Shown: piece after piece, positions 5,194 to 6,430 of the stretch
Numbering within the stretch: position 1 is the stretch's first letter
Layout: each line of letters opens with the position of its first letter
Made by a program: the position numbers and the translations under genes
Source of the DNA: Candidatus Buchananbacteria bacterium RIFCSPHIGHO2_02_FULL_39_17
GTDB taxonomy: Bacteria > Patescibacteriota > Patescibacteriia > Buchananbacterales > UBA6539
NCBI GenBank assembly: GCA_001817425.1
Contig: MHII01000010.1
Span: forward strand, 1 to 43,213
Direction: 5' to 3'
DNA: 43,213 nt
Notes under the pieces: model-generated
What the model was told of the DNA's origin: nothing
Databases searched by the model: none
The model's input: only the letters and a program-made list of their open reading frames with translations

Positions 5194-5218
5194 TGGAGCC
5201 AGGGAGAGGATTTGTCCC
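5194..5218 (-). pseudogene. tRNA 3'-end fragment (T-arm/acceptor with encoded CCA)
   Basis: Minus-strand GGGACAAATCCTCTCCCTGGCTCCA resembles the 3' end of the nearby tRNA-Thr; no matching 5' half found. Confidence 0.4.
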
Positions 5219-5362
5219 GGTCGCCTTAGGCGACCGAGGATCCCGACTTCTTAATTATTTTAATAAATCAGTGCGTCGGGGAACCGGGAACCTACAGTTT
5301 ATCCCGATTTTATAAAAATTTTACTGGAGCCGGAGGTCGGATTCGGACCGACGACTTATTTA

Positions 5363-5467
5363 CCCCGCACCATTTGCCAACAAGCCAGGAGAGGGATTCG
5401 AACCCACGACCTACTGTTTACAAAACAGTTGCTCTACCGCTGAGCTATCCTGGCAAATGGTGCGGGG
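5363..5467. repeat. 17-bp perfect inverted repeats flanking the nested tRNA-Thr
   Basis: ccccgcaccatttgcca (5363-5379) and tggcaaatggtgcgggg (5451-5467). Confidence 0.95.
5383..5454 (-). tRNA. tRNA-Thr(TGT), nested inside another tRNA gene
   Basis: Acceptor GCCAGGA/TCCTGGC, D-arm GCTC..GAGC, anticodon arm ACTGT-TTTGTAA-ACAGT, T-arm GTGGGTTCGAATCCCTC. Confidence 0.92.
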
Positions 5468-5610
5468 CTGGCGCAAAACAGTTACTCTACCACTGAGTTA
5501 CTCCGGCTTACAGTTTCTCACTATACTCTTGAATCATTGAGAATCCCGATTCTGGCCTAAATTCAATTCGATGGTTAATTGTCAATAGTTAAATGTTAAT
5601 TATTAAAAGT

Positions 5611-5726: not shown

Positions 5727-5996
5727 TTAACCTTGTCTTAACTTTTTACTAAAGCCGCCTAATTGTTTAGCAATCTCTTCACATTCCAACATCATTTCAT
5801 CAAAATTCTTTCTATTAATTAAATCGGCAGAATGCATTACGTCCAGACAAGCGACAACTTCACTAGCGGAACCAAGCGACAACTGAATGAAACGAAAAAA
5901 TTCTTTATCGGATTGCCGAGCTGATCCTTCTACGATATTCAGGACTATTGACAGAGTGGCGCGCCTAAGTTGTTCTTTCAAGCTATAAACTCTCAA
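5727..5996 (-). CDS. Four-helix-bundle protein (23S rRNA intervening-sequence protein family), N-terminus uncertain
   Basis: SLKEQLRRATLSIVLNIVEGSARQSDKEFFRFIQLSLGSASEVVACLDV family signature; the reading frame continues upstream without a canonical start codon. Confidence 0.75.
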   Translation of the reverse strand: MRVYSLKEQLRRATLSIVLNIVEGSARQSDKEFFRFIQLSLGSASEVVACLDVMHSADLINRKNFDEMMLECEEIAKQLGGFSKKLRQG

Positions 5997-6149: not shown

Positions 6150-6430
6150 TGGAGCCCAAGCGCGGAATTGAACCGCGGACCTACTCCTTCATGTATACCT
6201 CTATTTCGTCTTCTTTAAACTTATAAGAGGATTAGACTGTATCTTAGACATATTTCACTAAAAATGAAACTTAGTCTCCCTTGTCAGTCGTTCGAGCGCG
6301 CTGTGGCACTACGGTCTGATCCATATTAGATTAGGATTTTAACCGTTATTCGGGATTCATTATCGAGTTTCCAAGACAATGGGCATCTTTAAATACCATG
6401 GAGTTGCTCTACCAGCTGAGCTACTTGGGC
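6150..6430 (-). tRNA. tRNA-Thr(GGT) interrupted by a group I intron, CCA encoded
   Basis: Exon 1 GCCCAAG..GAGCAACTCCATGGT (6430-6395); exon 2 AAGGAGTAGGTCCGCGGTTCAATTCCGCGCTTGGGCTCCA (6189-6150); acceptor GCCCAAG/CTTGGGC. Confidence 0.85.
6190..6394 (-). other. Group I intron (~205 nt, no ORF)
   Basis: Follows U at the 5' splice site, ends in G; P7-like AGACT/AGTCT with J8/7-like TAAGATACAGTCT; P8-like hairpin TTTCA-tttttag-TGAAA. Confidence 0.8.

Follow-up and report, generated by a model that had tools for sequence, protein, structure and literature searches.

A tRNA-Thr(TGT) gene nested within an interrupted tRNA-Thr(TGT) gene in Buchananbacteria, and cognate tRNA nests in related genomes

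The window analysed here, a stretch of 43,213 nucleotides from Candidatus Buchananbacteria bacterium RIFCSPHIGHO2_02_FULL_39_17 (contig MHII01000010.1), harbours on its minus strand (5325-5507) an intact inner tRNA-Thr(TGT) enclosed by an interrupted outer tRNA-Thr(TGT), as established by a letter-by-letter check. This focal nest is probably a nuclease-less copy of a mobile hairpin/GIY-YIG element that disrupts tRNA-Thr(TGT) at 35|36 and supplies a complete replacement. The layout recurs, cargo and host tRNA are cognate, the hairpins are repeated, GIY-YIG genes cluster at tRNA genes, and some nests consist of multiple layers.

Anatomy of the nest and its neighbourhood

That a tRNA-Thr(TGT) is nested in another tRNA gene and framed by perfect 17-bp inverted repeats had been proposed in the initial annotation, and the letters bear this out, together with the details given for the outer gene. 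Its acceptor GCCGGAG in the 5′ half pairs 7/7 with CTCCGGC in the 3′ half, the D-stem (ACTC/GAGT) and the T-stem (GTCGG/CCGAC) are intact, and the CCA is encoded. What that annotation called the right arm overlaps the first 4 nt of the inner tRNA, the two having GCCA in common. The expected number of perfect 17-bp inverted repeats ≤150 nt apart is approximately 0.0008 per window of the same composition, and the RNA fold of the focal segment gave z = −6.1. The inner tRNA-Thr(TGT) was called by ARAGORN and matched the Rfam tRNA family with 73.1 bits. It was also the only Rfam match within 5325-5507, even at E ≤ 1, where neither a group I core nor an intron family was detected, and a nuclease ORF is absent from the focal locus.

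Table 1. Features of the focal nest and of the adjacent tRNA-Thr relic in the window.
Feature	Position	Strand	Basis
Outer tRNA-Thr(TGT), 5′ half, nt 1-35 (GCCGGAGTAACTCAGTGGTAGAGTAACTGTTTTG)	5474-5507	−	Acceptor and D-stem pairing
Insert 5′ flank: CGCCAG and arm CCCCGCACCATTT	5455-5473	−	Sequence reading
Left arm, perfect 17-bp inverted repeat	5451-5467	−	Sequence reading
Inner intact tRNA-Thr(TGT)	5384-5454; discriminator base 5383	−	ARAGORN, Rfam, genome tRNA list
Insert 3′ flank: TTGTTGGC and arm AAATGGTGCGGGG	5363-5383	−	Sequence reading
Right arm, perfect 17-bp inverted repeat	5363-5379	−	Sequence reading
Outer tRNA-Thr, 3′ half, nt 36-76, encoded CCA, 3-nt anticodon-stem gap	5325-5362	−	
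Further tRNA-Thr 3′-half relic, first part (TAAACTGTAGGTTCCCGGTT)	5282-5301	−	Sequence reading
Empty two-hairpin element (CCCCG..CGGGA + TCCTCG..CGGGA) in T-loop of the further Thr relic	5215-5281	−	
Same further tRNA-Thr relic, end of 3′ half (CAAATCCTCTCCCTGGCTCCA)	5194-5214	−	Sequence reading

The break point lies between nt 35 and 36 of the outer tRNA. Here TTTG|TAA, once joined, gives TTTGTAA, the Thr loop, which identifies the outer gene as another tRNA-Thr(TGT). Its anticodon stem does not re-form, as had been observed earlier, but this is due to 3 nt missing from the outer 3′ half, not to another insertion point: the 3′ half reads TAA|A---TAAGTC versus TAAACAGTAGGTC in the inner copy (ACAGT to A---T). 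Lacking 3 nt of the anticodon stem in its 3′ half, the outer gene is, judged from its sequence, presumably dead. A one-off pseudogene accompanied by an intact gene of the outer isotype elsewhere had been considered, and the tRNA listing speaks against it, the inner copy being the sole Thr(TGT) gene among the 38 contigs (1.14 Mb) of the genome. The acceptor stems of the inner and outer copies differ, yet each pairs perfectly; the inner copy therefore came from elsewhere, or a long time has elapsed. More generally, a further idea is that nested copies may diverge in their acceptor stems because a transcript with identical halves would misfold.

The genome contains two Thr relics with an identical 3-nt loss in the anticodon stem (TAA|A---T), at 5325-5362 and on another contig (C21 64796-64956, L011), and these represent different isoacceptors, TGT and CGT. 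On the minus strand of the window at 6150-6430, a tRNA-Thr(GGT) is interrupted by an insert ~200 nt long (in the intron mode of ARAGORN, 205 nt at position 37; this mode was inconsistent on nests and was used only as a lead for Thr(GGT), not as evidence). By eye this insert is group I intron-like, yet it has no Rfam match. Between tRNA genes, at 5727-5996 (−), lies an ORF of the 23S_rRNA_IVP/four-helix-bundle family (PF05635, E = 7e-23). Both the 23S_rRNA_IVP and GIY-YIG families are also known from CPR rRNA insertions (PMC11270868).

Cognate nests in the genome and in its relatives

In a joint host test, the flanks of tRNAs were scored against the halves of every tRNA in the genome (41 candidates). 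The own isoacceptor was the best of the 41 for 9 of the 41 tRNA genes, well above shuffled flanks; these were Gly-GCC, Leu-CAA, Ala-TGC, Ser-TGA, Gln-CTG, Thr-TGT, Val-TAC, Leu-CAG and Arg-TCT. For Thr-CGT, it came second. Approximately eight more (Val-CAC, Pro-GGG, Pro-CGG, Ala-CGC, Ala-GGC, Gln-TTG, Glu-TTC and Ser-GCT) were cognate by eye, and the by-eye total of genes flanked by halves of the same tRNA is about 18 of the 41. Ala-TGC forms a triple nest: the innermost copy occupies the T-loop of a second, and this one sits in an anticodon-loop hairpin of a third. The tRNA set is nearly single copy, with 41 intact genes, and intact copies of Ile(GAT), Phe, Lys(TTT), Pro(TGG) and Gly(TCC) were not detected in this draft genome of 38 contigs; these may be interrupted by inserts or located in missing sequence.

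A search of 143 relatives with the focal segment, followed by reading of the matching loci, showed that the nested layout recurs and so is conserved beyond its own genome, a point the initial annotation had asked about. Thr(TGT)-in-Thr(TGT) was found in G006, G044, G045, G049, G096, G102, G106 and others, and many of the Thr nests of relatives occupy one shared locus, tRNA-Tyr / tRNA-Thr / rpmG / tRNA-Trp. Across nests the insertion points fall in D-, anticodon- and T-loops; in G038, G053 and G112 the break is in the D-arm instead. The nest of G044 has four stacked layers, B(A(B(A))). At this locus (L049, C17:5244-5354), two Thr genes and two arm sequences alternate. In G132 (L150), the inner tRNA-Thr within an outer Thr(TGT) has the anticodon GGT, possibly by an anticodon switch T34G after nesting.

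Among the Thr(TGT) loci of the class, about 19 of 82 scored ≥40 for flanking Thr halves versus 1 of 82 when shuffled, a fraction perhaps somewhat inflated because the nested query was used to reach the 82 loci. Halves of other tRNAs also scored ≥40 at 17 of the 82 (best of 12), as is expected from the motifs that tRNAs share. Isoacceptors are therefore not cleanly separated in the Thr survey, and cognate identity rests on the host tests in the own genome and in G045 and on the reading of the halves. G045 belongs to another family and is assembled in 3 contigs; there the own isoacceptor ranked first of 48 for 14 of 17 tRNAs with a joint score ≥46, and an Arg-TCT is nested in Arg-TCT, again broken at 35|36.

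These data bear on three alternatives. An assembly artefact might be suspected in a draft of 38 contigs, but the same layout is present in many independent genomes, including on large contigs (698 and 744 kb), which leaves this explanation a negligible chance. It is highly improbable that plain tandem tRNA duplication, followed by deletions and chance palindromes, produced the nests with no mobile element involved. Such a history would suit the loci of G071, G016 and G229, where a dead 5′ half is followed by an intact copy, and the middle layers of G044, which look recombined; it does not suit the cargo's perfect inverted arms, the 7/7 pairing retained by outer acceptor stems, or the tRNA-free copies of these hairpin elements at other genomic sites.

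The third alternative is an intron or split tRNA, in which the 17-bp stem would join the outer halves and a nuclease and a ligase would let both tRNAs mature. The outer tRNA-Thr is fully paired and intact but for the insert in G049 and G102, the outer stems of G096 are perfect apart from further hairpins, and many rRNA insertions occur in CPR bacteria (PMC11270868). In the focal and C21 nests, however, the outer anticodon stems are broken, no intron family matches inside the focal nest, and every nest examined keeps an intact inner copy while the break moves among D-, anticodon- and T-loops. We consider this alternative very unlikely, and with it the earlier suggestion of a precursor from which the long stem would release the inner tRNA, so that two tRNAs mature. 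An archaeal-type (bulge-helix-bulge) or split tRNA was rejected separately, as the focal exons, with 3 nt missing, rejoin to no cloverleaf, whereas those of G049 and G102 do.

The other earlier suggestion, a decayed tRNA serving as the landing site of a hairpin-borne tRNA cassette, is in contrast well supported, genome-wide and class-wide, with cognate cargo.

Hairpin elements and GIY-YIG genes at tRNA genes

The hairpin elements inserted in tRNA genes are repeats. In one family, TCCCG..CGGGA precedes TCCTCG..CGGGA, and the genome has 10 copies of the exact motif (reversed control, one mismatch allowed: 3). About half of these copies lie within or next to tRNA genes or their relics, and the element at 5281-5215 is one of the 10. 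The sites of this family read (G/A)TT|CAA or TTTG|YAA, the motifs of the tRNA T-loop and anticodon loop. A second element, CCCCGCACC..GGTGCGGGG, was present in 40 copies versus 6 reversed-control matches, often as convergent pairs 100-300 bp apart and several times between genes; CCCCGCACC is part of the 5′ flank of the focal insert. A 30-nt version made of two 6-bp hairpins with 3-nt loops (reversed control zero) is inserted at 35|36 of Thr, Ile(TAT) and Ser(TGA), and on the opposite strand in Cys, so that the site preference seems to follow TTTTG and not the orientation of the tRNA. The insertions in tRNA-Cys were detected at three loci (L157, L159 and L160 in G334, G106 and G150, respectively). 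The 30-nt insert was also seen in G107 (L154, C5:81258-81297), apparently within a protein-coding gene that by eye is sugar-nucleotide dehydratase-like. In Rickettsia, palindromic elements are known within protein-coding genes. No target duplication is obvious at the element sites, no tRNA cargo was found in the intergenic copies, and a search of viral contigs with two exact patterns gave no match.

GIY-YIG genes abut tRNA genes far beyond chance. Four of the 11 GIY-YIG ORFs in the own genome (P ~1e-4) and 8 of the 9 small ones in G045 (P ~6e-12) lie <300 bp from a tRNA, P values which treat the ORFs as independent although neighbours may be related to one another. When placed by coordinates, 12 of the 28 best small GIY-YIG ORFs of six relatives were within 300 bp of a tRNA. 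At Gln-CTG, Glu-CTC, Glu-TTC and Ser-GCT of the own genome the order is [cognate 5′ half]-GIY-YIG-[full tRNA], and similar cases occur in G096 and G102. The tRNA-adjacent ORFs do not form one clean clade, with 6 label changes on the tree and a subclade of 12 that never adjoins tRNAs; the intergenic GIY-YIG ORFs are found inside hairpins with similar arms but without a tRNA.

The fullest element was identified in G045 (C2:481321-481533, L286), and it follows the same two-hairpin plan as the empty elements. Here, tRNA-Ala(TGC) is interrupted at 35|36 by two hairpins, after which comes the outer 3′ half. The first hairpin reads TCCCGATGCGCAC - GIY-YIG ORF - TTGCGCATCGTGGA, the ORF matching PF01541 with E = 4e-17, and the second TCCGCGATAAAATCAGGT - complete tRNA-Ala - CCTGATTTTATCGGGA, the inner tRNA-Ala being identical to the outer halves over the compared parts.

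Hairpins might also carry random tRNAs and transpose freely, e.g. as folded single strands moved by a Y1/RAYT-type transposase, with only the cognate insertions surviving. Selection alone would then enforce cognate nesting in essential single-copy tRNA genes. The elements have hairpins, no obvious target duplication and sites of (G/A)TT|CAA or TTTG|YAA, and a Y1 transposase gene is present in 7 of the 10 genomes searched, with one in the own genome; a REPIN/RAYT or IS200/IS605 derivative would be expected to have hairpin ends and a linked Y1 gene. This would predict tRNA-bearing hairpins to be common between genes, but the intergenic copies are without tRNA and the 41 genes are nearly single copy. 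Together with the cognate-only cargo, these observations argue against free transposition of random cassettes, which we regard as unlikely, and favour a homology-guided or local process.

A candidate home-and-rescue system and its nearest known relatives

GIY-YIG homing is, we infer, the best candidate for such a process. The evolution of a nest may be depicted as follows: the GIY-YIG enzyme would cut within a loop sequence of a tRNA gene, and repair of the break would draw on DNA that bears the element (homing). The full tRNA copy would rescue the broken essential gene, and the insertion would for this reason survive and could not be deleted. The inner copy would then offer a fresh target, so that nests would stack in the manner of Russian dolls, and most copies would later lose their ORF, with decay of the outer halves. 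For release of the inner tRNA, RNase P and the usual 3′-end processing presumably suffice. The breaks are spread over D-, anticodon- and T-loops, more than a single narrow recognition site can account for. Since the focal copy has no ORF and homing is a proposed step, the nests are placed in no named family.

It is possible, and suggested here tentatively, that these are natural home-and-rescue systems, in which GIY-YIG hairpin elements each cut one essential tRNA gene, insert in its loop and supply the complete replacement, and have in this way repeatedly replaced the tRNA set of the class. If this is true, the insertion becomes an undeletable part of translation, and the nests show that selfish DNA which brings a spare can invade even the genes under the strongest constraint in a streamlined genome. 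Rescue-type gene drives would have a natural precedent in them; the nests would also explain the stacked tRNA fragments of CPR genomes and could account for tRNA genes missed or mis-annotated in these, and their many insertion layers are available for the study of tRNA gene turnover.

No description of a full cognate tRNA inside an interrupted tRNA was found in the open-access literature searched. The nearest known systems are SegB of phage T4 and the CPR rRNA insertions, neither of which describes such an arrangement (PMC2988022, PMC11270868). SegB, a free-standing homing endonuclease of the GIY-YIG type belonging to the tRNA gene region, is likewise encoded by a small gene among tRNA genes and favours the inheritance of its own tRNA region (PMC2988022). 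It is located between tRNA genes, however, whereas here the ORF and a full tRNA reside in a hairpin element within the cognate tRNA. The CPR rRNA insertions, from the same bacterial group, are located in a structural RNA gene at the top or the base of its stem-loops; some carry genes for GIY-YIG or 23S_rRNA_IVP proteins but match no group I/II intron, and many are short inserts of unknown nature, but they carry no replacement rRNA, and the main text is silent on tRNA (PMC11270868). REPINs, GTAG/CGTC palindromes and the like are short palindromic elements dispersed in bacterial genomes and mostly extragenic (PMC3116915, PMC3733652), whereas the palindromes described here occupy the loops of tRNAs, sometimes with a tRNA or nuclease ORF inside.

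The layout is also similar to that of the intervening sequence (IVS) of 23S rRNA, a stem-loop insert in a loop of a structural RNA that RNase III excises and that leaves the ends unligated. Fungal mitochondrial endonuclease inserts of the Allomyces atp6 type bring a replacement gene end, and thus are alike in that a mobile element supplies the displaced part of its host gene, but there it is the 3′ portion only, fused in frame, and here a whole separate tRNA gene. Integrative elements and prophages with attachment sites in tRNA genes also leave a functional tRNA behind, but they depend on a recombinase and restore one tRNA half at the junction, while the replacement in the nests is the complete inner gene. 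Engineered home-and-rescue or cleave-and-rescue drives likewise break an essential gene for which they bring a functional copy; these are synthetic, and the nests, given the drive step proposed above, would be their natural bacterial counterpart.
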